A DNA stretch of 64,000 nucleotides. Origin: Sphaerisporangium rubeum. Lineage in GTDB: Bacteria; Actinomycetota; Actinomycetes; Streptosporangiales; Streptosporangiaceae. The stretch is from NCBI RefSeq assembly GCF_014207705.1, contig NZ_JACHIU010000001.1:4394501-4458500 (forward strand). The letters run 5' to 3'. Below the pieces are notes generated by a model. The model saw nothing but the letters and a program-made list of their open reading frames with translations. It was not told where the DNA came from and did no database searches. Shown piece after piece: positions 9,013 through 39,686 of this stretch. Position 1 is the first letter of the stretch, and the number at the start of each line of letters is the position of its first letter. The position numbers and the translations under genes were made by a program.

Positions 9013-9021
9013 CCCCTACCC

Positions 9022-9059: not shown

Positions 9060-9125
9060 AGTGTTCAGGAGGTCAGCCGACCGTGCAGGCGGCGCCGTTG
9101 AGGGCTTTCCGGCGGATCCACAGCA

Positions 9126-9136
9126 TGAAACTTTCA
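9126..9136. promoter_or_regulatory. TGAAA-C-TTTCA palindrome upstream of GH29
   Basis: This 11-base perfect palindrome is followed after 3 bases by a degenerate ACAT-N3-ATGT box (9140-9150). The same pairing of elements occurs at 19791-19819. Confidence 0.45.
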
Positions 9137-9196
9137 GATAGATCCTATGTTTTCATGGCTGCGAAAAGGCCCGATCCGCCTAATCTCCCGGACTGC

Positions 9197-9239
9197 TGGA
9201 CATACCATCGGAGCCGATTTACAAAGACATCCAATGTCT
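9197..9239 (+). promoter_or_regulatory. GH29 promoter with overlapping AGACAT-CCA-ATGTCT dyad
   Basis: TGGACA (9197-9202), a 17-base spacer and TACAAA (9220-9225) are followed immediately by the perfect dyad AGACAT-CCA-ATGTCT (9225-9239). The start codon is 64 bases further on. The same arrangement occurs upstream of the RbsB-type gene (32426-32384, minus strand) and as an orphan at 19911. A repressor bound to the dyad would block initiation; that is inference. Confidence 0.55.
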
Positions 9240-9302
9240 CTGTGCGAAGCTCTCTTCAGGTGAGCCGGTGGAGAGCTCCGCTCGTCCCCGAAAGGCACCC
9301 CC

Positions 9303-14400: not shown

Positions 14401-14593
14401 CGATGGGAAGGGCCCGCAGCCAGTCGGTGCCGGCGCCTGCGTTGTACCAGAGCGCCAGGTCGTTGGCCGCCGCCACCTGCGCGGGAGGAGCGGAGGCGGC
14501 GTTCGCGGTGGCCGTCCACTGCAACGGCACCAGCGCCGCTCCGGCGCCGGCGGCGCCGAAGCGGAACAGCTGCCTACGCGAAAAGTCGGACAT
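11462..14593 (-). CDS. secreted GH95 alpha-L-fucosidase with beta/gamma-crystallin-like and ricin-type modules
   Basis: The 1043-residue protein has a Tat-type signal (FSRRQLFRFG, residues 4-13). GH95 spans about 35-800: LPIGNGRLGAMVFG, ANLPMNYWP (the Asn pair of the family), HRHISHLYGLHP and PFQIDGNFG (catalytic Asp by family comparison). A beta/gamma-crystallin-like segment follows (about 815-900, ATVYADTNYAGASASL and VTAFAGDNFSGTSWTF, the two Greek-key signatures), then a ricin-like lectin (about 905-1043). GH95 enzymes cut alpha-1,2-fucose, for example from xyloglucan side chains. The ATG at 14593 follows a GGGAG-type site and starts the Tat signal. It converges on the GH29 gene and shares a 247-bp identical lectin segment with it. 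Confidence 0.92.
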   Translation of the reverse strand: MSDFSRRQLFRFGAAGAGAALVPLQWTATANAASAPPAQVAAANDLALWYNAGAGTDWLRALPIGNGRLGAMVFGNVDVERLQLNEDTVWAGGPYDQSNTRGAGALAQIRQAVFNNQWSQAQTLIDQNMLGSPAGQLAYQTVGNIRLTFGAGGSGVSEYNRLLDLTTATTVTTYLQNGVRYRRETFASAPDQVIAIRLTADRTGSITFSATFDSPQSTTRTSPDNLSVGLNGVSGNFEGKTGSVRFLALARAVADGGTVSSSGGTLQVRNANSVTLLISIGTSYVNYTNVGGDYQGIARNYLNAALGRTYDDLRARHVADYQALFGRTSLDLGRTSAADQPTDVRIAQHNNTTDPQFSVLLFQFGRYLLISSSRPGTQPANLQGIWNDSLAPSWDSKYTINANLPMNYWPADTTNLSECFDPVFKMINDLTVTGARTARVQYNAGGWVTHHNTDGWRATSVVDGALWGMWQTGGAWLSTLIWDHYQFTGDQAFLQQYYPAMKGAAQFFLDTLVNEPSLGYLVTNPSNSPELPHHSGVSVCAGPTMDNQILRDLFNGVAQASQVLGVDSDFRTRVLAARDRLPPMKVGSRGNIMEWLYDWVETEPNHRHISHLYGLHPSNQITKRGTPSLYTAARRTLELRGDDGTGWSLAWKINYWARMEEGARAHTLIRLLVTTSRLAPNMFDLHPPFQIDGNFGATSGIAEMLLQSHNGELHVLPALPSAWPSGKVQGLRGRGGYTVDTTWSSGSPSEILVKFDRDGTVNVRSRLFTGTYQVVDTSTGEAVTVTKPESDVIRLTGAAGRTYRATGQGGNPPTGVATVYADTNYAGASASLPTGDYTAAQLQALGIGLRTISSLRVTSGYQVTAFAGDNFSGTSWTFTADNANLSNTGNNDAIASLRVTTASTTPTGYSRITNATSGLVLDSGGNVASGSNVKQWNYDGSNNLQWQLVDLGSGWYRIVNRTNGMVIDSWGNTSNGAPARQAAWSGSNNQQWRLNSVGNNRYQIINRGTGTALDGMGSTSAGSTVGMWTPNNSTNNQWTITTV
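11597..11843 (-). repeat. 247-bp exact inverted repeat, right arm
   Basis: Exact reverse complement of 10904-11150. It encodes the start and middle of the GH95 lectin domain. Confidence 0.9.
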
Positions 14594-14704
14594 AGAAGTT
14601 CTCCATCGCGGGAGGGGGTGCGGATGGGCTGACGTCCCGGCGGCCACGGCACGTGCCGCCGGGAGTCAGAGTCATGCGACTGGTGAACCGGTCACCGGGA
14701 CACG

Positions 14705-16642: not shown

Positions 16643-19534
<2,892 letters not shown>

Positions 19535-20183: not shown

Positions 20184-21035
20184 CTACACGTCCAGGTCGT
20201 AGACCCGTGCCGCGGTTCCCCCGAACACGGCGGCACGCTCCGCCGGTGTGAGGCCGGCCCGGTCGAGCAGCGCCGTCACCGTCTCCGACCACTGCGTGAG
20301 CGTGCCCCCGAGGAGACAGACCGGCCAGTCGGAGCCGAACATCAACCGGCCGGGGCCGAACGCCTCCAGCGCGACGCCGACATACGGCCACATGTCCTCG
20401 GTACTCCAGCCGGGGGACGCCTCCGTCATGAGACCGGACACCTTGGCCGTCACATTGGGCTCCGCGGCGAGCTCACGGATCAGGCCGGCCCACGGGTCGA
20501 GCTCTCCGGCCGCGATCGGCGGCTTGGCCAGGTGGTCGAGCACGAAGCCCAGGTGCGGCAGCGCGCGCACGGTCTCGATCGCCGCGGGCAACTGGTGCGG
20601 CAGGACGAGCAGGTCGTAGACGAGCCCGGCCTCGGCCACCCGCCGCAGGCCCTCGCGCACGTCGTCTCGCGCCAGCCACCGCGGGTCGGGCTCCCCCTGC
20701 ACCAGGTGGCGGATCCCGCGCAGCAGGCCGCCGCCGGGGCCGGCGGTGAGCGCGGCGAGCTCGTCGGCGAGGCCGGGACCGGTCAGGTCGGCCCAGCCCA
20801 CCACCGCGGCGACGGTGTCCGACCGCGCCGCCGCGTCGAGGAACTCGCGGGTCTCGTCCAGGTCGGGGAGGACCTGCACCAGGACGGAACGGTCGATCCC
20901 GGCCTTCGCCGTCTCGGCGGCGTGGTCGGCGACGGAGAAGTCACGGTTGATGAGCGCCATGTGCGGGGGTTCCAGCCATGCCTGCGGCCGCAGAGACAGG
21001 TCCCAGATGTGATGGTGCGCGTCGATTCGGGTCAC
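20184..21035 (-). CDS. amidohydrolase, probable L-fucono-1,5-lactonase
   Basis: The 283-residue cytoplasmic protein belongs to the COG3618 amidohydrolase_2 group. The N-terminal DAHHHIWDL carries the metal-binding His residues, and FVLDHLAKP and LMFGSDWPVCLL near the C-terminus complete the site. Characterised relatives open L-fucono-, L-rhamnono- or 4-sulfolactones; context with L-fuconate dehydratase favours L-fuconolactone to L-fuconate. It is the last gene of the 26145-20184 operon. Its GTG start at 21035 overlaps the LarC stop (GTGA), which excludes the longer reading through LarC. A rhamnonolactonase role is the main alternative. Confidence 0.82.
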   Translation of the reverse strand: MTRIDAHHHIWDLSLRPQAWLEPPHMALINRDFSVADHAAETAKAGIDRSVLVQVLPDLDETREFLDAAARSDTVAAVVGWADLTGPGLADELAALTAGPGGGLLRGIRHLVQGEPDPRWLARDDVREGLRRVAEAGLVYDLLVLPHQLPAAIETVRALPHLGFVLDHLAKPPIAAGELDPWAGLIRELAAEPNVTAKVSGLMTEASPGWSTEDMWPYVGVALEAFGPGRLMFGSDWPVCLLGGTLTQWSETVTALLDRAGLTPAERAAVFGGTAARVYDLDV

Positions 21036-22147
21036 AGTGCGTCCAGCGCCTCTCGTGCGAGTTGCCTCAGTGGCCTGCCGGTGGCCGCGGCCAGTCTCAC
21101 CAGGTCGTCGTGCTCGGGTTTGACCCCCCACGGGCCGTGCTTCATGCGCACGTCCTGGCCGTGCAGGCGCACGGTCTCGAAGTGACGCGGCAGCGCGACC
21201 TTGTCCACCACACCGCGCCGCAGTCCGAGGCTGCCGGTCTCGGCGAGCACGAGCTCCTCCAGGCGGCCCGCGAGTTCCGGCGGGGTGAGCACGTGCAGGA
21301 CGTGCGCGGGACGGGTCTTCTTCATGACGGCGGGGGTGACCCACGCGTCGGCGGCCCCGGCGGCGAGCGCGCGCTCGATCACGTGACCGAGGACCTCGCC
21401 GGTCACGTCGTCGAGGTTCGCCGACAGCACGACCTGCTGTGTGGTCTCGGCGGTGGGTTCCCCGAGCATGGCGACGACGACGTTGGGCCGGCCGGGGACC
21501 TCGCGCGTGCCGGCGCCGTACCCGGTGGCGCGCAGCGTCATCTCCGGCGCGGGGCCGTAGTCCGCGCCGGCGGCGCGCAGCAGCGCGGCCCCGGTCGGGG
21601 TGACGGCCTCCCCCGCCGCGCCGCCGCGCACGACGGCCCCCTGGAGCAGGGCCAGCGTGGCGGGGGCCGGTACGGGGAGCACGCCGTGGCGGGTGCGCAC
21701 CGTGCCGCCGCCGAGCGGAAGCGGCGCGCAGTGGACGCGCGTGACGCCGAGGTCGCGGAGCGCCGCCGCGCAGCCGACGATGTCGATCAGTGTGTCGTGG
21801 CCGCCGAGCTCGTGCAGGTGCACGCCGGCGGCGGGGACACCGTGCAGCCTGCCTTCGACCTCGGCGATCGCGGTGAGCGCCGCTTCGGCGACCGGCAGGC
21901 CGGCCCGGGCCGCCATCGCGATCAGCTCCGCCGCGGGACGCTCGGTGGCGTCGTCCTCGACCTCGACGCGGAAACGTACGGCGACCAGCGGCCCGGTGCG
22001 TACCTGCTCGGCCTCCACCCGCCACCCGGTCAGCCCCGTCAGTGCGACGGCGCGGCGTACGGCGTCGAGTGACGCGCCGGCGTCGAGCAGCGCGGCGAGC
22101 AGCATGTCCCCCGCGAGGCCGCCGAACGGGTTCAGGCTGAGGATCAT
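21032..22147 (-). CDS. larC: LarC, nickel insertion enzyme for the NPN cofactor
   Basis: The 371-residue protein is of the LarC (former DUF111) family: GLAGDMLLAALLDAGA at the N-terminus, VHLHELGGHDTLIDIVGCAAAL and HCAPLPLGGGTVRTRHG in the middle, and ANLDDVTGEVLGHV with KKTRPAHVLHVL in the C-terminal domain. LarC inserts nickel, with CTP, into the sulfur-loaded pyridinium precursor made by LarB and LarE. In some bacteria larC is split in two by a frameshift; here it is a single open frame. The start overlaps the LarB stop (ATGA) and its stop overlaps the lactonase start, so the three are probably translated together. Confidence 0.95.
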   Translation of the reverse strand: MILSLNPFGGLAGDMLLAALLDAGASLDAVRRAVALTGLTGWRVEAEQVRTGPLVAVRFRVEVEDDATERPAAELIAMAARAGLPVAEAALTAIAEVEGRLHGVPAAGVHLHELGGHDTLIDIVGCAAALRDLGVTRVHCAPLPLGGGTVRTRHGVLPVPAPATLALLQGAVVRGGAAGEAVTPTGAALLRAAGADYGPAPEMTLRATGYGAGTREVPGRPNVVVAMLGEPTAETTQQVVLSANLDDVTGEVLGHVIERALAAGAADAWVTPAVMKKTRPAHVLHVLTPPELAGRLEELVLAETGSLGLRRGVVDKVALPRHFETVRLHGQDVRMKHGPWGVKPEHDDLVRLAAATGRPLRQLAREALDAL

Positions 22148-22809
22148 CCCGGTCTCCTGGTCAGGCGGAAGGCGGCGAGCGCGGCGCCGAACCCCGAGTC
22201 GATGTTGACCACGGTGATCCCCGCCGCGCAGGAGGTGAGCATCGCCAGCAGGGCCGTGACGCCTTCGAGCGCCGCGCCGTACCCGGTGGAGGTCGGCACG
22301 GCGATCACCGGTGTCTCCACGAGCCCGCCGACGACGCTGGCGAGCGCTCCCTCCATGCCGGCGATCACGATCACGCTGTCGGCCGCGCGCAGGTCGGGGA
22401 CGGCGGCCAGCACGCGGTGCAGGCCCGCCACCCCGACGTCGCGCACCACCGTCGTGCGCAGCCCGAGCGCGGTGGCGACGGCGGCGGCCTCGGCGGCCAC
22501 CGGGCCGTCGGAGGTCCCCGCGGTGACCACGGCCACGGTGTGTCCCGCCGGAGCGGCCTCGCGCCAGGTGAGCAGGCGTGCGTCCGGGTCGTGCCGGCCA
22601 CCGGGGACGGCCGCGAGCACGTCGGCGGCCACGCCGGGTTCGACGCGTGTCACAAGGACCGGCCCGGTGTTCCTGCCGAGCAGCGTGGTGACGATGCCGG
22701 TGATCTCGTCCACCTGTTTGCCGGGCCCGTAGACGACCTCAGGCAGACCTTGGCGGGCCTCGCGGCCGAGGTCCACCCGCGCGTACCCGAGGTCGAGCGA
22801 CTCGCTCAT
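22144..22809 (-). CDS. larB: LarB, nicotinate adenine dinucleotide carboxylase/hydrolase
   Basis: The 221-residue protein is of the AIR-carboxylase-like LarB family. LarB carboxylates the pyridinium ring of nicotinic acid adenine dinucleotide and releases AMP, the first step of NPN synthesis. Visible hallmarks are VVTAGTSDGPVAAEAA, AGMEGALASVVGGL, VPTSTGYGA and MLTSCAAGITVVNIDSGFGAA, in which Cys194 matches the conserved cysteine of the family. The C-terminal half holds the catalytic fold; the N-terminal ~80 residues are the usual LarB-specific extension. It overlaps the upstream fucU-like gene and the downstream larC gene by 4 bases each. Confidence 0.95.
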   Translation of the reverse strand: MSESLDLGYARVDLGREARQGLPEVVYGPGKQVDEITGIVTTLLGRNTGPVLVTRVEPGVAADVLAAVPGGRHDPDARLLTWREAAPAGHTVAVVTAGTSDGPVAAEAAAVATALGLRTTVVRDVGVAGLHRVLAAVPDLRAADSVIVIAGMEGALASVVGGLVETPVIAVPTSTGYGAALEGVTALLAMLTSCAAGITVVNIDSGFGAALAAFRLTRRPG

Positions 22810-23228
22810 GCGGGGACGACGAAACCTATGGTCAGCAGCAGGTTGGCGTACAGCCGCTCGTCGCCGGTCGCCACCGCGAACGCCACGTCCGGCCCCTTCG
22901 CCGCCTCGTAGAAGGCCTGCCGTGGCAGCGGCTCGACCGGCAGGGCCGGGCCGAGCAGGTCGCGGTAACGGCCGAGGACACCGGGTTCACCGCCGTCGTC
23001 GGGACGCATGGAGTGCACCGCCTCCAGCGGCACGGCGTCCACGAGCACCTCCAGGACGTCGTCGACGCGGACCATGCCGGGACGCAGGTTCAGGTGGATC
23101 ACCGGCGCACCGGCGCGGACGTTGGTGGCGTGCGCGTAGTTGGCGTCGGCGAGAAGGACACGGGACCCGTGGCCGGTCGCCGCGAGCGCGCCGAGCAGCG
23201 GCGGGTGGAGAAGGGGATAGCGGAGCAC
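22806..23228 (-). CDS. fucU: RbsD/FucU-family mutarotase (probable L-fucose mutarotase)
   Basis: The 140-residue protein belongs to the RbsD/FucU fold: LRYPLLHPPLLGALAATGHGSRVLLADANYA at the N-terminus carries the conserved His and Asp residues. These enzymes interconvert alpha and beta anomers of L-fucose or D-ribose. Its place between larA and larB in an L-fucose operon favours L-fucose. It would supply the anomer used by a fucose dehydrogenase. The GTG start at 23228 lies 2 bases after the larA stop and is preceded by CAGGAG; the stop overlaps the larB start (ATGA). Confidence 0.82.
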   Translation of the reverse strand: MLRYPLLHPPLLGALAATGHGSRVLLADANYAHATNVRAGAPVIHLNLRPGMVRVDDVLEVLVDAVPLEAVHSMRPDDGGEPGVLGRYRDLLGPALPVEPLPRQAFYEAAKGPDVAFAVATGDERLYANLLLTIGFVVPA

Positions 23229-23230
23229 TG

Positions 23231-24487
23231 CTACTCCTGCGTGAGGTAGGGGACGGTCATGGGTCCCTCCGGCAGCACGCACACCCGGCCGGGGAGATCG
23301 GCGACGGTGGCGGCCACGTCGCCGGTGCGCTCCAGGTGTGCCGTGGCCAGCTCGGCGTCGCCGAGACCGGAGGTGTACATGATCACGCGGGCCGCGCGCT
23401 GGATACGGGCCTGGATCTGCACCTGCCACTGGTCGGGGACGGTCACCTCGCGGCGGGAGATCTCCTGGAACAGCGCCTCAGGCGAGGCGGCGGAGGTGAG
23501 GACCTCACGGTAGGAGCCGTGGTCGGGGAACCCGTCGCGGCACTCGGCGGCGCAGACGATGGTGCCGCCGGGTCTGACCACCTGCGCGGCGGCGCTCATG
23601 CCCTTGACCGACTGGTAGAGGTTCTGGTCGAGCGGGAAGCCCGCGTTGGTCGTCACCACCACGTCGAACGGCTCGGCGACCGGCCGCATCGCGGCCTGCC
23701 GGACGGCGGCGGTGGCCGCGGCGTGCATGGGGAGCAGGTCGCCGCCGAAGGCCCGAACGATGCGCTGCTCGCGGTTCAGCATGACGTCGAGCGCGAACGT
23801 GACGCCGGTGGCGGCGGCGATGGCGCGGACGTCGTCGTGCACGGGGTTGCCCTCGATGACACCCCAGGTGGCGCGCGGGTCGCCGATGCGGGCCGCGTCG
23901 TGCAGGGTGAGCACCGTCTCCAGCGCGGCGAGGCCCGGTGCGACGAGCTTCGGGCCGCCGGAGAAGCCGGCGAAGAAGTGCGGCTCCACGAAACCGGTGG
24001 TGATGCGCACGTCGGCGTCCAGCCACTCGCGGTTGAGCCATACCGGGACGTCCTTGCCGTGGCGGCCGGCCCAGCGCAGCGACGAGGTGTCGCGCGCGTC
24101 GTGGTTGACGATGCGCACGGCGTCCACGACCTGGTCGCCGAACATGGCGCGCAGCTCGGCGGGGGTGTTGCCGCGATGGGTGCCGGTGGCGACGAGGATC
24201 ACGACGTCGCCGAGGTCGATCACGCCGTCGAGCTCGTCGAGGATCGCCGGGATCATGAGGTGTCTCGGCTGCGGCCGGGTGCCGTCGCACGCGGAGACGG
24301 CGACCGTCTGGCCCGGCCGGACGCGCTCACGCAGCGGCGGGCCCGCCACGGGGTCGCGCAGCGCGCGCCGCAGCTCGGCGGCCTCGTCGGGTGCCGCCGG
24401 CCGGTCGGCCGGGGTGATCACGGTGGTCCGCTCGCCGGGAAGGTCCACGACAAGGCCGCCGGTGCCGTAGGCCAGGTCAACCCGCAC
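23231..24487 (-). CDS. larA: LarA-family nickel-pincer racemase/epimerase
   Basis: The 418-residue protein aligns with lactate racemase across its length. His104 (ATGTHR), His170 and Lys180 (EPHFFAGFSGGPK) and His196 (TLHDAAR) correspond, all with an offset of 4, to L. plantarum His108, His174, Lys184 and His200. These are the base pair, the covalent NPN lysine and the nickel ligand. The LarA superfamily also contains malate, phenyllactate, hydroxyglutarate and gluconate racemases/epimerases, so the substrate is uncertain. Here the pathway makes L-lactate and passes through L-fuconate; both are candidates. The GTG start at 24487 is 57 bases after the SDR stop. Confidence 0.92.
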   Translation of the reverse strand: MRVDLAYGTGGLVVDLPGERTTVITPADRPAAPDEAAELRRALRDPVAGPPLRERVRPGQTVAVSACDGTRPQPRHLMIPAILDELDGVIDLGDVVILVATGTHRGNTPAELRAMFGDQVVDAVRIVNHDARDTSSLRWAGRHGKDVPVWLNREWLDADVRITTGFVEPHFFAGFSGGPKLVAPGLAALETVLTLHDAARIGDPRATWGVIEGNPVHDDVRAIAAATGVTFALDVMLNREQRIVRAFGGDLLPMHAAATAAVRQAAMRPVAEPFDVVVTTNAGFPLDQNLYQSVKGMSAAAQVVRPGGTIVCAAECRDGFPDHGSYREVLTSAASPEALFQEISRREVTVPDQWQVQIQARIQRAARVIMYTSGLGDAELATAHLERTGDVAATVADLPGRVCVLPEGPMTVPYLTQE

Positions 24488-24544
24488 GACGTCGCTCCTC
24501 GCACGATGTCACAGTCGCCGACACTACCGCCGCCACGGGGACGG

Positions 24545-25300
24545 TCATGGCGCGGGGGGCCGCAGCCGCAGACCGGACATCCCGCCGTCCACCGGCAGCT
24601 CGATGCCGGCCGTGGAGCCGGCGGCGGGGCTCGCCAGGTAGGCCACGGCGCAGGCGACCTCGTGCGCGCTCACCAGCCGGCCGTGCGGCTGCCTGGCCCG
24701 CAGCGCGGCGCGCTCGCCGTCGGGGTCGGGGGCCGCGTCCAGCAGACGTCCCACCCAGGGGGTGTCGACGGTGCCGGGGGTGACGCAGTTGACGCGGATG
24801 CCCTCGCGGACGTGGTCGGCCGCCATCGCGCGGGTCAGCGCGAGCACCGCGCCTTTGGAGGCGGAGTACAGGGCTCGCTGCGGCAGGCCGGCGGTGGCGG
24901 CGATGGAGCAGGTGTTGACGACGGCGGCGCTCGGCGACCTGCGCAGGTACGGCAGCGCCGCTCTGGTCACGCGGACCACGCCGAACACGTTGACGTCGAA
25001 CACGTGGCGCCACTCGGCGTCGTCGTTGTCGGCGACCGTCCCCTGCGCGCCGATGCCGGCGTTGTTGACGAGCACGTCGATGCGGCCGTACCGCTCGGCG
25101 ACGGCCGTGACGGCGCGCCGCACGGAGTCGTCGTCGGTGACGTCGCACACGAACTCGGTGTCCTTGAGGTCGAGGACGGCCACCTCGGCGCCGCGCGCGG
25201 CCAGCTCACGCGCGACGGCCTGGCCGATGCCGGAGGCGCCGCCGGTGACGACGGCCACCAGGCCGCCGAACTCCCCCCGGCCGGCCGCCGGCTCGCTCAT
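24545..25300 (-). CDS. SDR dehydrogenase, probable 2-keto-3-deoxy-L-fuconate 4-dehydrogenase
   Basis: The 251-residue short-chain dehydrogenase has the NAD(P) site VTGGASGIG (residues 18-26), NNAGIG, the catalytic Ser (NTCSIAATAG), YSASK and the C-terminal PVDGGM. The SDR in non-phosphorylative fucose pathways oxidises 2-keto-3-deoxy-L-fuconate at C4 to the 2,4-diketo acid, which the neighbouring FAH-family enzyme cleaves. An L-fucose 1-dehydrogenase role cannot be excluded, because only one dehydrogenase is found in the cluster and the pathway needs two. The ATG overlaps the FAH gene stop by 4 bases. Confidence 0.82.
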   Translation of the reverse strand: MSEPAAGRGEFGGLVAVVTGGASGIGQAVARELAARGAEVAVLDLKDTEFVCDVTDDDSVRRAVTAVAERYGRIDVLVNNAGIGAQGTVADNDDAEWRHVFDVNVFGVVRVTRAALPYLRRSPSAAVVNTCSIAATAGLPQRALYSASKGAVLALTRAMAADHVREGIRVNCVTPGTVDTPWVGRLLDAAPDPDGERAALRARQPHGRLVSAHEVACAVAYLASPAAGSTAGIELPVDGGMSGLRLRPPAP

Positions 25301-26145
25301 GCCTGCCCCATCCGCTGGCGCTGGCGGCCGAGACCGTCGATCTCCACCTCGACGAGGTCACCCGCGCGCAGATACGCCTCGGGGCCGCGGCCGAGCGCGA
25401 CCCCCGCCGGGGTGCCGGTGTTCACCACGTCACCGGCCTCGAGGACCATGAACTGGCTGAGGTACCAGATCACGTGGTGCACGCCGAAGATCTGGTTCTT
25501 GGTGCTGCCGTTCTGGCGGAGCTCGCCGTTGACCCACAGCCGCAGGCCCAGTGCCTGCGGGTCACCGGTCTCCTCGGGGGTGACCAGCCAGGGGCCGAGC
25601 GGGTTGAATGTTTCACACGATTTGCCCTTGTCCCACTGGCCGCCGCGCTCGATCTGGAACTCGCGCTCCGACACGTCGTTGGCGACGGCGTATCCCGCGA
25701 TCACCTCGGCGGCGTCCGCCGGCGAGGCCAGGTAGCGCGCGGTGCGGCCGAGGACGACGGCCAGCTCGACCTCGTAGTCGGTCTTCACGCTGAGGCGCGG
25801 CACGAGGACCTCGTCGTCGGGACCGACCACGGTGTTCGGGGCCTTCATGAAGACCACGGGCTCCGCGGGTGGCGTGGCGCCGGTCTCCTCGGCGTGGTCG
25901 GAGTAGTTCAGGCCGATGCAGACGACCTTGCCTGGCCTGGCCACCGGCGCGCCGACCCGCTCGTACGGCCCCGCCTCCGGCAGCTCTCCCGCGGCCATCG
26001 CCGTCCGCACCCGCTCGACGCCGCCGCCTTCGAGGAACGCGCCGTCGATGTCCGCCGTCAGCGACGACAGATCGAGAACCCGGCCGTCCGGCCCCATCAC
26101 GCAGGGCCGCTCACGACCCGGCGGACCCACACGCATCAACTTCAC
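25297..26145 (-). CDS. FAH-family hydrolase, probable 2,4-diketo-3-deoxy-L-fuconate hydrolase
   Basis: The 282-residue protein belongs to the fumarylacetoacetate hydrolase family: CIGLNYSDHAEE, FMKAPNTVVGPDDEV, DYEVELAVVLG (metal ligands) and NDVSEREFQ are all present. In the fucose/rhamnose route it cleaves the 2,4-diketo-3-deoxy acid to pyruvate and L-lactate. It is the first gene of the 26145-20184 operon, and the SDR start overlaps its stop. It is divergent from the fuconate dehydratase with 169 bases between start codons. The pathway assignment rests on family plus context. Confidence 0.88.
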   Translation of the reverse strand: MKLMRVGPPGRERPCVMGPDGRVLDLSSLTADIDGAFLEGGGVERVRTAMAAGELPEAGPYERVGAPVARPGKVVCIGLNYSDHAEETGATPPAEPVVFMKAPNTVVGPDDEVLVPRLSVKTDYEVELAVVLGRTARYLASPADAAEVIAGYAVANDVSEREFQIERGGQWDKGKSCETFNPLGPWLVTPEETGDPQALGLRLWVNGELRQNGSTKNQIFGVHHVIWYLSQFMVLEAGDVVNTGTPAGVALGRGPEAYLRAGDLVEVEIDGLGRQRQRMGQA

Positions 26146-26230
26146 GGTCTGTGCCTTCTCCGCTGGTCGTCCACGGGCATATGTCGTGGCGAGCCTGTCA
26201 GATTCATCGGGTTAATGTAAAGCATTTGGC

Positions 26231-26241
26231 CGGAAATTCCG
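26231..26241. promoter_or_regulatory. CGGAA-A-TTCCG palindrome in the divergent fucose promoter region
   Basis: This 11-base perfect palindrome lies between the divergent FAH and fuconate dehydratase genes and just upstream of the plus-strand promoter at 26250. It is a candidate operator for the cluster; the regulator is not identified. Confidence 0.4.
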
Positions 26242-26249
26242 CTGCCGAC

Positions 26250-26278
26250 TTGACCTCTTTCGGACGTGACTCTACTGT
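26250..26278 (+). promoter_or_regulatory. sigma-70-type promoter for L-fuconate dehydratase
   Basis: TTGACC (26250-26255), 17-base spacer, TACTGT (26273-26278), 36 bases before the start codon at 26315. Confidence 0.55.
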
Positions 26279-26314
26279 TCGAATCATATTCATCGGACCA
26301 ATTGGAGCTCGCCC

Positions 26315-27607
26315 ATGCCGACGATCACCTCCGTGAACGTGATCGACATCAGGTTCCCGACCTCCGCGACGCTCGACGGGTCGGACGCGATGAACCCGGA
26401 CGGCGACTACTCGGCGGCGTACGTCGTGCTGGAGACCGACGAGCCGGACCTCGCCGGATACGGCCTGACGTTCACGATCGGCCGCGGCAACGACCTGTGC
26501 GTGGCCGCCGCCAGGCAGATCGGGCAACGGCTGACGGGCTGTGACGTGGACCAGGTGGCGGCCGGCCTCGGCGGGCTGTACCGCGACATCATGGCCGACA
26601 GCCAGATGCGCTGGCTCGGGCCGGAGAAAGGCGTGGTGCACCTGTCCGCCGCGGCCGTGCTGAACGCCGCGTGGGACCTCGCGGCGCGCCGGGCCGGCAA
26701 GCCGCTGTGGCGCCTGGTCGCCGACATGTCGCCTGAGGAACTGGTCGCCGCCTGCGACTTCCGCTACCTGTCCGACGCGCTGACCCCCGCCGAGGCCGTC
26801 GAGATGCTCACCGCGCTCGCCCCCACGCGCGAGGCCAGGATCGCCGAACTCGCCGAGCACGGGTACCCCGGCTACACCACCTCCCCCGGCTGGCTCGGCT
26901 ACGACGACGACAAGCTGCGCCGCCTGTGCCGTGAGGCCGTCGCCGACGGCTGGACCCACGTCAAGCTCAAGGTCGGCGCGCGGGTCGAGGACGATGTGCG
27001 GCGGCTGGCCATCGCGCGCGAGGAGCTCGGCGACCGCACGCTGATGATCGACGCCAACCAGGTGTGGGACGTGCCGCAGGCCATCGACTGGGTGAACCGG
27101 CTCGCCGCGTACGAGCCGCTGTGGATCGAGGAGCCGACCAGCCCCGACGACATCCTCGGCCACGCGGCCATTCGCAAGGCCGTCGCGCCGGTCGGCGTGG
27201 CCACCGGCGAGCACTGCCACAACCGCGTCATGTTCAAGCAGCTCCTGCAGGCGGGGGCCATCGACTACTGCCAGATCGACTCCTGCCGCCTGGCCTCGGT
27301 CAACGAGATCATCCCGGTGCTGCTGATGGCGGCCAAGTTCGGCGTGCCGGTGTGCCCGCACGGCGGCGGCGTCGGCCTGTGCGAGCTCGTGCAGCACATG
27401 GCGATCGTCGACTACGTCTGCGTGAGCGGCAGCCTCGAAGGCCGCGTGCTCGAATACGTCGACCATCTGCACGAGCACTTCACCGACCCCGTGCGGGTCG
27501 AGCGCGGCCGGTACCGGCTGCCTGAGCGGCCCGGCTACAGCGCGCGGATGCACCCGGAGTCCGTGGCCGGCTACCGCTACCCTGATGGCCACCGCTGGGG
27601 AGGCTGA
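26315..27607 (+). CDS. L-fuconate dehydratase (enolase superfamily)
   Basis: The 430-residue enzyme dehydrates L-fuconate to 2-keto-3-deoxy-L-fuconate. Lys217/Lys219 (KLKVG), Asp246 (MIDANQVWD), Glu272 ([10 protein letters not shown]), Glu299 (GEHCHN) and His349 (CPHGGGVGL) match the catalytic and Mg-binding set of the characterised Xanthomonas enzyme (Lys220, Asp248, Glu274, Glu301, His351) within two positions. The N-terminal capping domain includes [12 protein letters not shown], also typical of that enzyme. It starts a two-gene operon with larE, whose ATG is 1 base after the stop. The promoter at 26250 is close by. Confidence in this specific function is higher than for the neighbours. 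Confidence 0.94.
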
Positions 27608-27608
27608 C

Positions 27609-28520
27609 ATGGGTGTGGTCGACGACACGACCAGCGAGACCGGCGCGACCGGCGCGGCCGACACGGACGGCACGACCGTCCCGCGCCGGGACGGGCCGCA
27701 CGGTGACGCCGTGAGTGACGGCCTGGCGCGGCTGACGGCGCGGCTGCGTCGGCAGGACGCGCTGATCGTCGCCTACTCCGGCGGCGCCGACTCCGCGCTG
27801 CTCGCCTTCGCCGCCGCCAGGGTGCTCGGCGCGCGCGCGCTCGCGGTGACCGCGGTCTCCCCCAGCCTCGCCGCCGCCGAGCGGGCCGCGGCCCGCGCGT
27901 TCGCGCGGCGGCACGGCCTGGCCCACGTCGAGGTGTGCACCGACGAGGCCGACCGGCCGGAGTACGCCGCCAACGGCGCCGACCGCTGCTACCACTGCAA
28001 GTCGGCGCTGTTCGACGCGGTGGCGCCGCTGGCCGCGGCGATGGGTGCTCGGGTCGCGCTCGGCACCAACCTCGACGACCTCGGCGACCACCGGCCCGGC
28101 CAGCGGGCCGCGGCCGAGCGCGGCGCCGTCGCGCCGCTGGTGGAGGCCGGCCTGACCAAGGCCGCCGTGCGCGAGATCAGCGCGAAGCTCGGCCTGGAGA
28201 CCGCGGCCAAGCCCGCCGCGCCGTGCCTGGCCTCGCGGGTCGAGTACGGCGATCGGGTCACCCCCGAGGTCCTGCGCCGGGTCGAGGCCGCCGAGGCGGC
28301 GCTGCGCGCCATGGGCTTCCCCGTGTGCCGGGTGCGGGCCCACGCCGGCGGCACCCTCGCCAGGGTCGAGGTGCCGCGCGCGGAGATCCCCCGCGTCACC
28401 GAGCTGCGTGAGCGGGTCGACGCCGCGGTGCGCGGCGCCGGCTTCACGTTCTGCTCGCTCGACCTGTCGGGCTTCGCCTCCGGCCGCCTCAACGCGCTGC
28501 TGCCACTGCTTCCCTCGTAG
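27609..28520 (+). CDS. larE: LarE, ATP-dependent sacrificial sulfur transferase
   Basis: The 303-residue protein has a PP-loop (AYSGGADSALL, Ser57 to Ser62), NGADRCYHCKSALF, the LGTNLDDLGDHRPG segment and KPAAPCLASR. Cys206 in the last motif matches the sacrificial cysteine of lactobacillar LarE. LarE adenylates the carboxylated pyridinium and transfers sulfur to it, twice per cofactor. The first ~35 residues form an acidic/Gly/Thr extension not needed for the fold. The ATG at 27609 follows GGGGAGG with good spacing and sits 1 base after the dehydratase stop; an in-frame ATG at 27585 overlaps that gene. It completes the larABCE set here. Confidence 0.94.
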   Translation: MGVVDDTTSETGATGAADTDGTTVPRRDGPHGDAVSDGLARLTARLRRQDALIVAYSGGADSALLAFAAARVLGARALAVTAVSPSLAAAERAAARAFARRHGLAHVEVCTDEADRPEYAANGADRCYHCKSALFDAVAPLAAAMGARVALGTNLDDLGDHRPGQRAAAERGAVAPLVEAGLTKAAVREISAKLGLETAAKPAAPCLASRVEYGDRVTPEVLRRVEAAEAALRAMGFPVCRVRAHAGGTLARVEVPRAEIPRVTELRERVDAAVRGAGFTFCSLDLSGFASGRLNALLPLLPS

Positions 28521-28555: not shown

Positions 28556-29602
28556 TCATTCCTGTACCTTGCCGCCGGTGAGCCGTGAGATGGCGAGCGC
28601 GGTGAGGATGATCCCGCCGTTCAGGGCCTCGATCCACTGCGCCGGGACACCCGCGAGGGTGAGCACGTTCTGGATCATGTAGAGCAGCAGGATGCCGGTG
28701 AACGCGCCGAACACCGTGCCCTTGCCGCCGTTGAGGCTGACCCCGCCGATGACGGCGGCGGCGAACACCGTGAAGATCGCTCCACTCCCCTGGCCCGCGG
28801 CGACCGAGGCCAGCCGGCCCGACAGCAGCAGGCCGCCGAGCGCGGCGAGCAGGCTCGCCGTGATCAAGGTGATCCACAGGACCCGGCCGGTGCGGATGCC
28901 GGCCGCCTTGGCGGCGTCGATGTTGCCGCCGATGGCGTACAGCGAGCGGCCGAACCGCGTGTACCCGAGGACCACGACGCCTCCCGCGAACAGCAGCAGG
29001 CAGATCCAGATCGACGCCGGCACCCCGAGCCACAGGGTGGAGCCGAGGTAGGTCATGGACGGCGGGAGGTTGAAGAACGTCTGGCCGCCGGAGATGCCGG
29101 TGAGCAGGCCGCGCAGCACGATCAGCATGCCGAGCGTGACGATGAAGCCGTTGAGGCCGAAGCGGACGATGAACAGCGCGTTCACCACACCGGCGAGCGC
29201 GCCGACCGCGAGGGTGACCGGGATGGCCCACCCTCCGGGAAGCAGCCCGAGCCCGTGTCCCGCACCGACCGCGACCGTCATCCAGGCGGCCACCCCCGGC
29301 GCCAGCCCGAACGTCGACTCGAGCGACAGGTCCATCCTGCCGCCGACCAGCACGAGCGTCTGCGCCAGCACGAGCAGCGAGATCTCCGACATGGTCTGCA
29401 GGATGTTGATCACGTTGTCGCCCTGCAGGAAGATCGGGTTGACGATCTGCCCCACGATGGCGATCACGATGACCGCGGGGACCAGCGCGAAGTCGCGCAG
29501 CCGCGCCAGGCGGAGCCCGGGCCGGCGTTCCCCGGTGCCGTCCGGCGGCGGGGAGCCCGGCGGGGTGCCGGTCGTGGCGGGGGTGGCGGTGGTCTCAGGC
29601 AT
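28556..29602 (-). CDS. RbsC-type sugar ABC transporter permease
   Basis: The 348-residue membrane protein has a Pro/Thr-rich cytoplasmic N-terminus (about 35 residues) and eight to ten hydrophobic segments. It belongs to the branched-chain/ribose permease class: QTLVLVGGRMDLSLES, GRFGLN-type loop (VRFGLNGFIVTLGML) and AIGGNIDAAKAAGI are characteristic. It forms the channel of the monosaccharide importer encoded with the ATPase and binding protein upstream. Its ATG overlaps the ATPase stop by 8 bases. It converges on larE with 35 bases between. L-fucose or L-rhamnose is the probable cargo given the neighbouring pathway. Confidence 0.92.
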   Translation of the reverse strand: MPETTATPATTGTPPGSPPPDGTGERRPGLRLARLRDFALVPAVIVIAIVGQIVNPIFLQGDNVINILQTMSEISLLVLAQTLVLVGGRMDLSLESTFGLAPGVAAWMTVAVGAGHGLGLLPGGWAIPVTLAVGALAGVVNALFIVRFGLNGFIVTLGMLIVLRGLLTGISGGQTFFNLPPSMTYLGSTLWLGVPASIWICLLLFAGGVVVLGYTRFGRSLYAIGGNIDAAKAAGIRTGRVLWITLITASLLAALGGLLLSGRLASVAAGQGSGAIFTVFAAAVIGGVSLNGGKGTVFGAFTGILLLYMIQNVLTLAGVPAQWIEALNGGIILTALAISRLTGGKVQE

Positions 29603-31163
29603 CGAGGTCGACTCCTTCCATGGCGGCCACCATCTCGTGGTCGTGCCATCCGGCGGCCAGTTCCGCGACGACGCGTCCGTGGAACATCACGAGCACCCGG
29701 TCGCACAGGCGCAGATCGTCGAGTTCGTCGGAGGCGATCACGACGCCTGTCCCGTTCCCCGCGATCTGCTCGACCTTGCCGAGCAGGAACTCCTTGGACC
29801 GGACGTCGACCCCGGCGGTGGGGGTGATCAGCACGAGCAGGCGCGGGTCGTTGGCCAGCGCGCGGGCCATGACGACCTTCTGCTGGTTGCCGCCGGACAG
29901 GCCGGAGACCGGCAGGTCCGGGCCCGGTGTCTTGATCGCGAGGTTGGTGATCATCTCGCGGGCCAGGCCGTCCTTGCGCCGGCCGCTGACGAAGCCCGCG
30001 GGGCCGAGCCGCTCGGGGACGGTCATCGTGGCGTTGTCGGCGATCGACATGAACGGCACGAGGCCCTGGTGGTGGCGGTCACGCGGCACGAAACCCACTC
30101 CCGCCGCCAGCGACGCCGGCACGCTGCCGGGGTGCAGACGGTCGCCTGCCACCCGCACGGTCCCCGAGCGCGGGGCCCGCAGGCCCACGATGGTCTCGGC
30201 CACCTCGGTCTTGCCGCTCCCGCCGAGCCCGGCCAGCCCGACGATCTCCCCCGCGTGGACCCGCAGGTCCACCTCCTGGTAGGTGCCGTCATCGGACAGT
30301 CCCTCGGCCGACAGGACGACCGGCGCGTCCTGCCGGACCTGCGGCCGGTCGGTGTGCTGCCGCAGGCCCGCGGCCTCGCCGGTCATCGCGGCCACCAGGT
30401 CCGCCTGCGGCAGCTCCCCCACCGGCGCGGTGAGGATGTGCCTCGCGTCACGGAACACCGTGACCGTGTCGCAGATCTCGTAAATCTCCTGCAGATGGTG
30501 GGAGATGTACAGGAAGGTGACTCCCTGTTCGCGCATGACGCGCATCCGCTGGAACAGCCGGTTGATCGCCGCGCCGTCGAGCTGCGCGGTCGGCTCGTCC
30601 AGGATGATGAACCGCGCGCCGAACGACAGCGCTCGCGCGATCTCCACGAACTGCCGCTGCTCCACCCCGAGCTCACCGGCCGGCCGGCGGACGTCCACGT
30701 CCACCGACCACATCTCCAGCAGCTCGGCCGCCTTGCGCCACAGGCTCTTCCAGCCGATCAGCCCGAGCCCGTTGCGTTCGTGCCTGTTGAGGTACAGGTT
30801 CTCCGCGACGGTGAGCTCGGGGATGATCGTGGACTTCTGGTACACGCAGGCGACCCGCGCGCGCCAGGCGTCGCGGTCGGCGAGCCGTGGCGCGGGGGCT
30901 CCGGAGAAACGGACCTCACCGGCGTCCGGCGCCTGCAGCCCGGTGAGGATGGACACCAGGGTCGACTTGCCGGCGCCGTTGCGGCCCACGAGGGCATGAG
31001 CCTCGCCCGGGTTGATCGTGATGTGCGCCTGGTCCAGCGCCACCGTCTCGCCGTACCTCTTGCTTATGCGTTCCGCCTCCGCGACGGCGGGCCGGCCCGT
31101 GTGGGCCGGCTCGCCTCCGCGTGCGGGTGAAGGGCTCGCGGGCCCTCCCGCGAACTCGCCCAT
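29595..31163 (-). CDS. RbsA-type double ATPase of the sugar importer
   Basis: The 522-residue protein has two ABC domains in tandem. The first (about 25-245) has Walker A GRNGAGKST and Walker B FIILDEPTAQLD, with a weak signature (LGVEQRQF). The second (about 270-515) has GLGGSGKTE, signature LSGGNQQK, but LVLITPTAGVD where LxLDEPTxGVD is usual, so the Walker B Asp-Glu pair reads Ile-Thr. RbsA-type ATPases often have one weakened site; loss of both acids in the second domain is notable. The ATG at 31163 is the first start consistent with the binding-protein stop at 31175. It energises uptake with the RbsC-type permease. Confidence 0.92.
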   Translation of the reverse strand: MGEFAGGPASPSPARGGEPAHTGRPAVAEAERISKRYGETVALDQAHITINPGEAHALVGRNGAGKSTLVSILTGLQAPDAGEVRFSGAPAPRLADRDAWRARVACVYQKSTIIPELTVAENLYLNRHERNGLGLIGWKSLWRKAAELLEMWSVDVDVRRPAGELGVEQRQFVEIARALSFGARFIILDEPTAQLDGAAINRLFQRMRVMREQGVTFLYISHHLQEIYEICDTVTVFRDARHILTAPVGELPQADLVAAMTGEAAGLRQHTDRPQVRQDAPVVLSAEGLSDDGTYQEVDLRVHAGEIVGLAGLGGSGKTEVAETIVGLRAPRSGTVRVAGDRLHPGSVPASLAAGVGFVPRDRHHQGLVPFMSIADNATMTVPERLGPAGFVSGRRKDGLAREMITNLAIKTPGPDLPVSGLSGGNQQKVVMARALANDPRLLVLITPTAGVDVRSKEFLLGKVEQIAGNGTGVVIASDELDDLRLCDRVLVMFHGRVVAELAAGWHDHEMVAAMEGVDLDA

Positions 31164-31174: not shown

Positions 31175-32257
31175 TCAGCTCAGGTTGTTGCCCCACAGCG
31201 ACTTGTCGTCGTACTTCACACTCGGGATGTCGCCGAACGTGCCGCCGTCGGAGGTGACGAGCGGCGCGGAGAGCTGGTCCTCGAGCAGCCCCTCGCGGAC
31301 CTGGATGATGGTGCTGTCGTGGTCGGTCTTGCCGGGCTGGAAGGTTTTGCCCTCCGCGGCGTCCTTGGCGTACGACAGGGCCCACTTGGCGTACAGGTCG
31401 GCGGGCTGGGAGACGGTGGCGTCGATGTTCCCGGCGGCGATCTCCTTGAGCTCCTGCGGGATGCCGTCGTTGGAGACGATGAAGACGTGCTTGGGGTCGT
31501 CCGGCGGCACCAGCAGGTCGCGCTGCTTGAGCACCTGGAGTGTGCCGGCCAGCGCGAAGCTCGACTGCATGTACACACCCTTGACGTCCGGGTTGGCGGT
31601 GAGGACCGTCGAGAGCTTCTGCGAGGCGATCGCGCCGTCCCACTTGGTGGCCTCGCCGAAGACCTTGATGCCGGCGTAGTTGGCCTTCATGCACTCGTTG
31701 AACGCCTCGGTGCGGTCCCGGCCGTTGATGGAGGCGAGGTCACCCTGCAGCATGACGACCTTGCCCTTGCCCTGGAGCTTCTCGCCGAGGAACCGGCAGG
31801 CCTTCTCGCCGTAGGCCCGGTTGTCGGCGCGCACGACCATGAAGGCGTTGCCGGTGTCGGGCCGGGTGTCCACCAGGACCGCGGGGATCTTCTTGGCCTC
31901 CAGCTGCTGGAGCGTGGGGGCCACGGCGGCGGTGTCCTGCGGGGCCATCACCACGCTGCGCACCCCCTGGCCCATGAAGGTCTGCACGTTGGCGGTCAGC
32001 TTGGCGATGTCGTTCTGCGAGTTGGTGGTCTTGAGCTCCACACCGAGTTCTTCCGCGCTCTTGGGCACGTAACTGATGTAGGAGTTCCAGAAGTCGGTGT
32101 CGGAACGCGGGTAGTCCACGCCGATGACCGGCTTCTCCGGCGCGCCTGACGCGCCGGTGCCGCCGCCTCCGCCTGCGCCGCCGCCCCCGCCGCAGGCCGC
32201 GACCAGACACCCCGATATGGCCAGGGCCGCGACGAGCGCGAACCGTCTGCGTTCCAT
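31175..32257 (-). CDS. RbsB-type sugar-binding lipoprotein
   Basis: The 360-residue lipoprotein has lipobox VAAC (Cys22) and a Gly-rich tether, then a periplasmic-binding fold (PVIGVDYPRSDTDFW, SVVMAPQDTAAVAPTL, VSNDGIPQELKEI). Class is ribose/fucose/rhamnose-like (Peripla_BP_4). It starts the three-gene importer operon (32257-28556). AAGGAGAG precedes the ATG. A promoter with the ACAT-N3-ATGT dyad lies at 32426-32384 and matches that of the GH29 fucosidase, which supports a fucose-linked role. Confidence 0.92.
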   Translation of the reverse strand: MERRRFALVAALAISGCLVAACGGGGGAGGGGGTGASGAPEKPVIGVDYPRSDTDFWNSYISYVPKSAEELGVELKTTNSQNDIAKLTANVQTFMGQGVRSVVMAPQDTAAVAPTLQQLEAKKIPAVLVDTRPDTGNAFMVVRADNRAYGEKACRFLGEKLQGKGKVVMLQGDLASINGRDRTEAFNECMKANYAGIKVFGEATKWDGAIASQKLSTVLTANPDVKGVYMQSSFALAGTLQVLKQRDLLVPPDDPKHVFIVSNDGIPQELKEIAAGNIDATVSQPADLYAKWALSYAKDAAEGKTFQPGKTDHDSTIIQVREGLLEDQLSAPLVTSDGGTFGDIPSVKYDDKSLWGNNLS

Positions 32258-32383
32258 CGTCTCTCCTTTTGAAGCACCACGGTTGCCGTGCCGTCGCTGA
32301 CCGCGCCGCACTCAGGCGGGCCCACTTCTCCCGGCGCGTGGAACTCCCGGAAGGATCGCCTTGGGGTCGCTCATCACCGACAG

Positions 32384-38969: not shown

Positions 38970-39686
38970 TCAGCCCGTCCGCTCCGCCGGACCCGCGCCG
39001 GCGGCTGATCTGCCGAGGTTCTCCCTCAGCCAGATCTCCGTGGTGCGCACGTGCACGAGCGCCACCGCCTCGGCGAGCGAGGCGTCGCGTGCCGCGAGTG
39101 CCTGGTAGATGGCGGTGTGCTCGGCCACGGTACGGCCGGCCACGTCGTCCTCGACCAGGCCGCGCCACACCCGCGCGCGCAGCGTACGGCCCGTGATGCC
39201 GGACAGCAGCGCGAACAGCGACCTGTTGCCCGTGGCCTCGAACACGGCACGGTGGAAGGCGTCGTCGTGGTGGTTGAGCGCCTCGACGTCGTGCTGAACG
39301 CCGGCCATCGCCTGGAGGTGCCGCTCGACCACGGTGAGCTGCGCGGGAGTGATGCGCGTGGCCGCCAGCCCGGTCGCCACGGGCTCGAACAGGCGCCGTA
39401 CCTCCAGGATCTCCAGCAGGTCGTCCCCCCGCATCATCTCGACGGCGAGACCGACGCCTTCCAGCAGCAGCTCGGGTTTGAGACTGGTGACGAACGTGCC
39501 GTCACCCCTTCTCACCTCCAGCACGCGGGTGGTGACCAGGGAACGCACGGCCTCCCTGAGCAGATTGCGTGACAGGCCCAGCTCCACGGCGAGTTCCTGC
39601 TCCGGAGGCAGCCTGGCACCCGGCGCCAGCACCCCTTCCTTGATGAGCTGCCTGATGTGCTCGATCGCCTGCTCTGTCAACGACAT
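38970..39686 (-). CDS. FadR-subfamily (FCD) GntR transcriptional regulator
   Basis: The 238-residue protein has an N-terminal winged helix (residues 1-70: LAPGARLPPEQELAVELGLSRNLLREAVRSL) and an FCD effector domain (about 85-215) with the Asp/His metal-binding positions (DDAFHRAVFEATGNRSLF). FCD regulators typically respond to sugar acids or other carboxylates. A palindrome GGACGAA-TT-TTCGTCC touches its start codon, which suggests autoregulation. It lies downstream of the enolase-superfamily gene in the same direction, so it may control the 44189-39929 operon or the xylan genes. Confidence 0.88.
   Translation of the reverse strand: MSLTEQAIEHIRQLIKEGVLAPGARLPPEQELAVELGLSRNLLREAVRSLVTTRVLEVRRGDGTFVTSLKPELLLEGVGLAVEMMRGDDLLEILEVRRLFEPVATGLAATRITPAQLTVVERHLQAMAGVQHDVEALNHHDDAFHRAVFEATGNRSLFALLSGITGRTLRARVWRGLVEDDVAGRTVAEHTAIYQALAARDASLAEAVALVHVRTTEIWLRENLGRSAAGAGPAERTG

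Follow-up and report, generated by a model that had tools for sequence, protein, structure and literature searches.

Why should a predicted lactate racemase that depends on a nickel-pincer nucleotide (NPN), together with the genes that make this cofactor, be built into a gene cluster for the breakdown of L-fucose? The question arises in the genome of Sphaerisporangium rubeum (7.5 Mb, single contig), in a stretch of 64 kb that was analysed as a whole and is called the window here, where larA, larB, larC and larE lie among genes resembling those of L-fucose catabolism. The pathway concerned is the non-phosphorylating one known as route 3, whose end products are pyruvate and L-lactate (PMC11199699; the literature is cited by PMC identifier). 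The answer put forward, to which we assign a probability of roughly 0.6, is that this is a route 3 pathway extended by one step, in which LarA racemises the L-lactate. The proposal is built on the genes, their arrangement, the family and pocket type of LarA and the recurrence of the pairing in other genomes, all read from sequence; from these we infer every reaction, which sugar is broken down and what becomes of the D-lactate.

A predicted racemase and its cofactor genes among fucose genes

The cluster consists of two divergent units (Table 1). On the minus strand, from 26145 down to 20184, the gene order is FAH hydrolase, short-chain dehydrogenase/reductase (SDR), larA, fucU, larB, larC and lactonase, which puts larA in one string of genes with the hydrolase expected to yield L-lactate. 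The fucD-larE unit (26315-28520) points the other way and is followed by minus-strand sugar ABC genes (32311-28556). An earlier reading of this DNA, made without database searches (the sequence-only reading), had already placed larA, larB and larC in one operon with an FAH-family hydrolase, an SDR, a FucU-type mutarotase and an amidohydrolase; this arrangement and its coordinates hold, and the Lar proteins exceed their NCBIfam cut-offs. It had also put larE 1 base behind the L-fuconate dehydratase gene, and a start 1 base past the FucD stop is indeed possible. Its count of five 4-base overlaps has to be corrected, as four are found among the six junctions of the larA operon (FAH/SDR, FucU/LarB, LarB/LarC and LarC/lactonase, the last between the larC stop and a GTG start of the lactonase-like gene), with gaps of about 57 bases between SDR and LarA and 2 bases between LarA and FucU.

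The genes for the cofactor are complete, with LarB, LarC and LarE each over the NCBIfam equivalog cut-off (LarC1 162 bits against 90, LarC2 119 bits against 50). LarE carries C127-x-x-C130 and C206, the CXXC-C motif of the [4Fe-4S]-type enzymes, which the LarE of L. plantarum is without (PMC9283937); a sacrificial LarE of the single-cysteine kind, which was considered as well, is thereby ruled out. In the whole genome there is a single Lar_N match.

The fucose enzymes are recognised with varying sharpness. For FucD, the match to the X. campestris enzyme (Table 1) is followed in the Protein Data Bank (PDB) by the close homologues 4ip4 and 4a35, and beyond these the score drops to 124 bits. The FAH hydrolase scores 319 bits against the rhamnonate equivalog NF053535, under the cut-off of 500, and the diketo acid is common to the rhamnose and fucose routes (PMC11199699). 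The best PDB match of the SDR, 4dqx, is placed beside the type 2 L-2-keto-3-deoxyfuconate (KDF) dehydrogenases in the same paper. Three of the four ligand positions of the H. huttiense enzyme (R148, T183 and R214) are found in the SDR at ungapped spacing as R142, T177 and R208; at the fourth, L186 stands where R192 is expected, and R185 adjoins it. By similarity, therefore, the KDF dehydrogenase and the diketo acid hydrolase of route 3 are present. The lactonase and the mutarotase belong to the right families and fall short of the specific models (185 bits against a cut-off of 400 for FuconLaconase; 35 bits against 141 for the L-fucose mutarotase equivalog). An L-fucose 1-dehydrogenase was not found in the cluster, a point that the sequence-only reading had not raised. 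In several sister clusters an aldo-keto reductase gene stands between those for SDR and LarA; no match to it was found anywhere in the window, and a homologue with 59% identity lies elsewhere in the genome, at 6.46 Mb.

Read in this way, the pathway would start with fucosidases releasing L-fucose, which the ABC transporter would import and which would be oxidised to fuconolactone and hydrolysed to L-fuconate. FucD would then dehydrate L-fuconate, the SDR would oxidise the product, and the FAH hydrolase would cleave it to pyruvate and L-lactate. LarB, LarE and LarC, encoded in the same two transcription units, would make the nickel-pincer cofactor and charge LarA, which would racemise L-lactate by hydride transfer, and D-lactate dehydrogenases would use the D-lactate alongside LutABC.

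The LarA family and its pocket

Beyond its own equivalog (Table 1), LarA scores 303 bits (cut-off 500) and 284 bits (cut-off 462) against the malate racemase models and 240 bits (cut-off 540) against the LarAH10 model. These values are far below the cut-offs; a LarA that clusters with a clade of unrelated substrate was an outcome that the sequence-only reading had named, together with a lack of co-occurrence with fucose genes, as speaking against it. The four residues it had listed (His104, His170, Lys180 and His196) are all present, as are Asp68, Arg71 and Lys295; more specifically, the catalytic residues D68, H104, H170 and K295 correspond to D72, H108, H174 and K298 of the reference, and the NPN ligands R71, K180 and H196 to R75, K184 and H200.

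The pocket was compared at the 20 positions named by PMC7583248, across 103 rows. Lactate racemases follow the rule F,F,W,E/Q at reference positions 175, 176, 358 and 359, where the gluconate epimerase GntE usually has E,V,A,H (PMC11770544). The window LarA has F171, F172, W354 and Q355 there, the lactate pattern and not that of GntE, and over all 20 positions it differs from L. plantarum LarA only by I220V, T359Q and A360V. For a wider view, 84,980 species genomes were scanned and 292 relatives confirmed; the analysis took in the best 80 of these, at 70-93% identity: F175, F176 and W358 are found in 80 of 80, Q359 in 79. Relatives linked to fucose genes and unlinked ones differ in this pocket by scattered single changes only, the most regular of which, A360I, is shared by four unlinked Kribbella and one unlinked Pseudonocardia. 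The linkage to fucose genes has therefore brought no new pocket. Such readings are to be taken with care, because LarAH10 epimerises gluconate although it is without the typical epimerase pocket (PMC11770544).

An AF2 model of LarA, built from 37 sequences (mean pLDDT 91.7), gave TM scores of 0.95 to the lactate racemases 9eid/9eia and 0.90-0.92 to 5huq, compared with 0.72-0.73 for malate racemase and 0.67 for GntE 4nar. These scores part the lactate racemases from the other groups coarsely, and domain opening in apo structures (4nar is without cofactor) may contribute. By family score, pocket and predicted fold LarA is of the lactate-racemase type, and lactate racemisation itself is a prediction from these. 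Together with upstream genes expected to give pyruvate and L-lactate, the equivalog score and the F,F,W,Q pocket support the sequence-only reading's first suggestion, that LarA would turn fucose-derived L-lactate into D-lactate.

Recurrence of the pairing across genomes

Neighbouring genes were called by identity thresholds of our own choosing, within 10 kb of larA, and loci are referred to by our labels (L042 and the like) where needed. At least one of fah, fucD, sdr and lactonase was found in 52 of the 80 relatives. Well-flanked loci were defined as those with 8 kb on both sides; this leaves 59 and excludes 21 of the 80 for their short flanks. Among the 59, at least one fucose gene is present in 41, at least two in 34, at least three in 25 and all four in 17. 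Fucose-gene linkage goes with the presence of at least two of larB, larC and larE (both in 39, neither in 16, discordant 2 + 2), a comparison whose Fisher statistics ignore kinship. Over the 24 genus labels, one of which is a family name, 18 have at least one fucose gene and 16 at least two.

There are two main gene orders, that of the window and that of the Streptomyces L042 type, in which GntR-fah-AKR-lactonase-larA-larB-larC-larE (AKR, aldo-keto reductase) is divergent from fucD-sdr and the ABC genes. Streptomyces L042 has the whole pathway, including the aldo-keto reductase, together with larABCE, and Amycolatopsis L040 has all but the aldo-keto reductase. The pairing is found in Streptosporangiaceae, Streptomycetaceae and Pseudonocardiaceae.

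Within the order, a sample of 200 genomes was searched for LarA at E up to 1e-60 and for FucD at E up to 1e-100. This LarA occurs in 27 genomes and FucD in 101; all 27 genomes with LarA have FucD, compared with 74 of the 173 without, and here too the statistics take no account of kinship. One genome of the sample (G481), of the same genus as S. rubeum, has a LarA identical to that of Sphaerisporangium sp. TRM90804. FucD lies within 5 kb of LarA in 17 of the 27, and in the other ten at 12.6 kb (one), at 150 kb (one) or on another contig (eight). FucD proteins at least 82% identical to that of the window occur in 25 genomes, 24 of them with this LarA, and a second FucD class is 57-70% identical. 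The exception, G460, has at its locus (L123) a 90%-identical fucD, the regulator and the lactonase, and larABCE, fah and sdr were not matched on the 17 kb fetched; it is possibly a natural loss of larABCE.

A single clade of fucose-linked LarAs was looked for and rejected: on the tree, 18 changes are required by the 44 rows with at least two fucose genes (33.5 on average in shuffles), a number that is too high because L121, L122, L124 and L125 were scored as unlinked and are in fact linked. When the count is confined to well-flanked loci plus those that carry a fucose gene of any kind, 8 changes are needed, on a quick tree with long branches flagged.

A separate observation concerns Kribbella L043, in which larA overlaps by 4 bases a gene of the GH127 family (8040-9992 and 9989-11272; similar in L057), Pfam-checked and of the beta-L-arabinofuranosidase type, with larBCE not matched within 10 kb. 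This is another carbohydrate link of this LarA clade.

The divergent promoter and shared motifs

Between fah and fucD the window has two copies of a motif, at 26202 and 26288, the second being one mismatch off AT[AT]CATCGG[AG]T. When 13 intergenic regions between fah and fucD are aligned, a fucD-side copy, similar to ATTCATCGG, can be recognised in 13 of 13 and a fah-side copy in 12 of 13 (not in L124; imperfect in L007 and L016); L012 and L125, with identical LarA, are probably one genome and are both counted. Where both copies are exact they are 86-88 bases apart. The exact pattern has 27 matches in 1.96 Mb of fetched loci and window, 24 of them in divergent regions of the fah-fucD type, a count that tells where the motif lies and not how rare it is genome-wide, since the loci were mostly picked for LarA. 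One exact match stands before the ABC binding-protein gene of the window (32486). All exact matches belong to Streptosporangiaceae-type loci and none to Streptomyces-type loci, and in Acrocarpospora L005, which is without fah there, the motif pair lies between fucD and larA. The position of the pair near both divergent starts suggests co-regulation of the putative fah-larA-lactonase and fucD-larE units. Separate regulation of larA, which the sequence-only reading had held to be damaging to a link with fucose, is not suggested by the DNA, given the shared gene string and the motif pair. A scan of the region for sigma-70 promoters and terminators gave nothing useful.

A second, palindromic element, RACATCCNATGTY, has four exact copies in the window: at 9226 upstream of the alpha-L-fucosidase gene, at 19807 and 19940 upstream of the gene for a secreted GSDH/PKD protein (16643-19501), and at 32384 upstream of the ABC binding-protein gene. 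With one mismatch allowed, shuffled sequences average 0.43 copies and 1 of 100 reaches four. It is possibly an operator shared by these genes.

What LarA may be for

Several observations weigh against lactate racemisation as the purpose of this arrangement. The genome has LutA- and LutB-like genes (LutB 427 bits, cut-off 444.8) and an open reading frame (ORF) placed like LutC, and TIGR00273 matches occur in 195 of the 200 genomes of the order (over the cut-off in 38 of 200), every one of the 27 LarA genomes among them. L-lactate oxidation is therefore probably possible without a racemase, so that LarA is not obviously needed, and the idea that the racemase makes up for a want of L-lactate oxidation is not supported. 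A dedicated D-lactate dehydrogenase was not seen among the genes of the cluster, and candidates of the FAD type, similar to GlcD/Dld, in the genome might take D-lactate. FucD is found without this LarA in 74 of the 101 FucD genomes of the order which, together with the Lut-like genes, leaves the rationale for LarA unsettled. Among the 59 well-flanked relatives 18 have no nearby fucose gene and nearly the same pocket, and fah is not within 10 kb in 5 of the 33 loci with fucD. In the window by itself the motif is weak, with 6 matches at up to 3 mismatches where shuffles average 2.8 and 7 of 100 reach 6. Genome context was, moreover, earlier uninformative for several LarA activities (PMC7583248).

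The co-occurrence of larA with fucose genes, which the sequence-only reading had singled out for a survey, stands in many genomes and fails at the scale of the phylum, where 52 of 296 sampled genomes have a LarA-like protein, 33 have FucD and 5 have both (5.8 expected). The LarA-like protein has 48% identity or less in 49 of these 52 genomes. An association of LarA with FucD as a general law is thus ruled out, and the pairing belongs to one LarA clade.

Among the alternatives, the one that survives best makes L-glycerate the decisive substrate: L-galactose, which is 6-hydroxy-fucose, would also be taken by the fucose enzymes, cleavage of its diketo acid would give pyruvate and L-glycerate, and LarA would turn the latter into D-glycerate for glycerate kinase. 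We regard it as doubtful, although it would account for a racemase paying its way despite the LutAB-like genes. L-galactose is, however, a minor sugar, which counts against this explanation. By its title, a 1979 paper cited in PMC13406643 offers precedent for the conversion of L-galactose to L-glycerate through such enzymes. A glycerate kinase family match is present in the genome (408 bits), but the gene is about 200 kb outside the window. The glutamine at the position of T359 (in 79 of 80 relatives) is shared with LarAH43, which slightly prefers glycerate to lactate, yet it is also usual among lactate racemases (PMC11770544). Similarly, the GH95 enzyme of the window has a Thr that matches the position seen in the L-galactosidase 4ufc, and this residue does not decide between L-galactose and L-fucose; as a proof of L-galactose it was rejected, since Thr also occurs in a fucose-specific enzyme and T395H was without effect on preference (PMC8245568). 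A broader version, in which LarA is the terminal racemase for three-carbon acids and one enzyme set burns both plant-wall L-fucose (via L-lactate) and L-galactose (via an otherwise unusable L-glycerate), is likewise speculative and more probably wrong than right. If true, it would give a glycerate/lactate racemase a physiological role and actinomycetes an L-galactose catabolic route.

It is improbable, in turn, that LarA meets a need for D-lactate unrelated to fucose (cell wall or redox), with the fucose cluster as its carbon source or chance home. The same LarA type does occur in Modestobacter, Kribbella, Actinoallomurus and Phytohabitans at loci where no fucose or larBCE genes were found within 10 kb; against this, well-flanked loci with one fucose gene or more are found under 18 of the 24 genus labels, arranged in two main gene orders, and larA shares both gene string and promoter motif with the fucose genes.

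Very improbable, finally, is the sequence-only reading's second suggestion, an epimerisation of L-fuconate or some other sugar acid, here taken to be at C2, by which a second sugar would enter the pathway. It is true that larA lies in one operon with genes for sugar-acid enzymes, that FucD shows residual activity on related acids, L-talonate among them (PMC13406643), that gluconate epimerases are known in the superfamily (PMC7583248) and that LarAH10 acts on gluconate with its atypical pocket. On the other side, the bulky F,F,W stands in place of the E,V,A of the usual GntE pattern (E,V,A,H), the pocket is almost unchanged in LarAs that lie away from fucose genes, the predicted fold is nearer to lactate racemases than to GntE 4nar (where the missing cofactor, and hence conformation, may contribute) and the four lactate racemases of PMC11770544 took only three- and four-carbon acids. 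The lactate-type pocket, near-identical in unlinked LarAs, therefore favours lactate derived from the hydrolase over epimerisation of L-fuconate.

Racemisation of fucose-derived lactate, if it is the role of LarA, would also be of wider interest. What the lactate racemases described in 2024 do physiologically was deferred to later in vivo studies (PMC11770544), and a racemase inside a defined sugar pathway would be a concrete, testable physiological role. Nickel would then have a part in the full use of fucose by these bacteria, and the clusters would be a natural source of lactate/glycerate racemases together with their cofactor genes.

Transporter, regulators and surrounding genes

For the ABC permease, ATPase and binding protein alike, 27 of the 80 relatives have an orthologue no further than 10 kb from larA. 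In Streptomyces L042 the fah-AKR-lactonase-larABCE operon has at its head a GntR gene whose product shares 66% identity with the GntR regulator encoded at 38970-39686 of the window. Homologues of this regulator are direct neighbours of the ABC genes in two loci, Microbispora L004 and Acrocarpospora L005, and stand one gene away from them in L012; the window protein is a probable regulator of the fucose-lar genes. A second GntR/FCD regulator stands between fucD and larE in L004, L005, L012, L022, L124 and L125 and is absent there in the window.

Plant-cell-wall hydrolases lie on both flanks: an arabinofuranosidase, an alpha-galactosidase, an alpha-L-fucosidase and the GH95 enzyme on one, and an alpha-galactosidase, GH43 and GH10 on the other. 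The arabinofuranosidase, alpha-galactosidase and alpha-L-fucosidase types presumably correspond to GH54, GH27 and GH29, labels that we take from Pfam names. The GH29 alpha-L-fucosidase is a possible source of L-fucose, and the GH95 enzyme, with Thr at the debated specificity position, retains both catalytic Asn.

A second sugar-acid module at 38970-45093 has two GntR/FCD regulators, an enolase-superfamily dehydratase (39929-41131) and an ABC importer. Members of this dehydratase family (54-83% identical) are about 10 kb or less from larA in seven loci (L013, L014, L036, L067, L034, L057 and L121), and the family may therefore feed the fucose-lar pathway.

Table 1. Features of the window in order of position (aa, amino acids).
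Feature	Coordinates	Strand	Evidence or remark
Alpha-L-fucosidase (GH29) with ricin-type lectin domain	9303..11285	+	PF01120 294 bits
GH95 alpha-L-fucosidase or alpha-L-galactosidase	11462..14647	-	PF22124 575 bits; PDB 7kmq 762, 4ufc 681 bits
L-fucono-1,5-lactonase-like amidohydrolase	20184..21035	-	Amidohydro_2 168 bits; best PDB match 4dlf 135 bits
larC, NPN nickel insertion	21032..22147	-	LarC1 and LarC2 domains in a single ORF; both NCBIfam cut-offs exceeded
larB, NPN biosynthesis	22144..22809	-	NF033503 256 bits, cut-off 175
RbsD/FucU-family mutarotase (fucU/rbsD)	22806..23228	-	PF05025 91 bits; GTG start
larA, lactate-racemase-type LarA, 418 aa	23231..24487	-	NF033504 524 bits, cut-off 460
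SDR, most likely L-2-keto-3-deoxyfuconate 4-dehydrogenase (FucF)	24545..25300	-	best PDB match 4dqx
FAH hydrolase (fah)	25297..26145	-	best PDB match 8gsr, L-2,4-diketo-3-deoxyrhamnonate hydrolase, 247 bits
Divergent promoter region	26146..26314	.	motif pair ATTCATCGG at 26202 and 26288
fucD, L-fuconate dehydratase	26315..27607	+	607 bits, full length, to X. campestris 2hne/1yey
larE, sulfur transferase, CXXC-C motif	27609..28520	+	TIGR00268 304 bits, cut-off 150
Sugar ABC permease	28556..29602	-	BPD_transp_2
Sugar ABC ATPase (start not determined)	29595..31160	-	two ABC domains, translation judged by eye
Sugar ABC solute-binding protein (start not determined)	31175..32311	-	translation judged by eye; motif ATACATCGGAT upstream at 32486
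GntR/FCD regulator	38970..39686	-	PF07729/PF00392

Comparison with known systems

No paper joining LarA and fucose catabolism was found in the literature searched, with supplements and most subscription journals outside its reach; in PMC11851776 fucose figures as a crystallisation additive and in the title of a reference, not as a linked catabolism. The sequence-only reading's remark that no described pathway joins the two systems agrees with this, within a search that did not extend to the supplements of the genome-context study of 2020.

Each half of the system has well-described counterparts. With the lactate racemases (L. plantarum LarA, T. thermosaccharolyticum 2yjg and E. asparagiformis LarAH43) the window LarA shares fold, by prediction, catalytic and NPN residues, the F,F,W of the pocket and adjoining NPN genes; it differs in its place in an actinomycete sugar-catabolic operon and in having Q at T359 and V at A360, and its LarE differs from that of L. 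plantarum by the CXXC-C motif (PMC9283937). With route 3 of H. huttiense and X. campestris (PMC11199699) the cluster has in common the dehydratase and, by similarity, the KDF dehydrogenase and the diketo acid hydrolase, along with a putative lactonase of the right family, whereas it adds larABCE, and the L-fucose 1-dehydrogenase was not found in the window cluster. A precedent is T. maritima GntE, a LarA homologue in a sugar-acid context (PMC7583248), so that the mere presence of a LarA next to sugar genes has been seen before; GntE, however, acts on the sugar acid and its kind usually has E,V,A,H, in contrast to the lactate-type pocket seen here. The pairing is surprising and testable, with chemistry of a known kind and a need as yet unproven. 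It is real and conserved, and seems to extend a known pathway, by an enzyme of known type, in a way not described so far.

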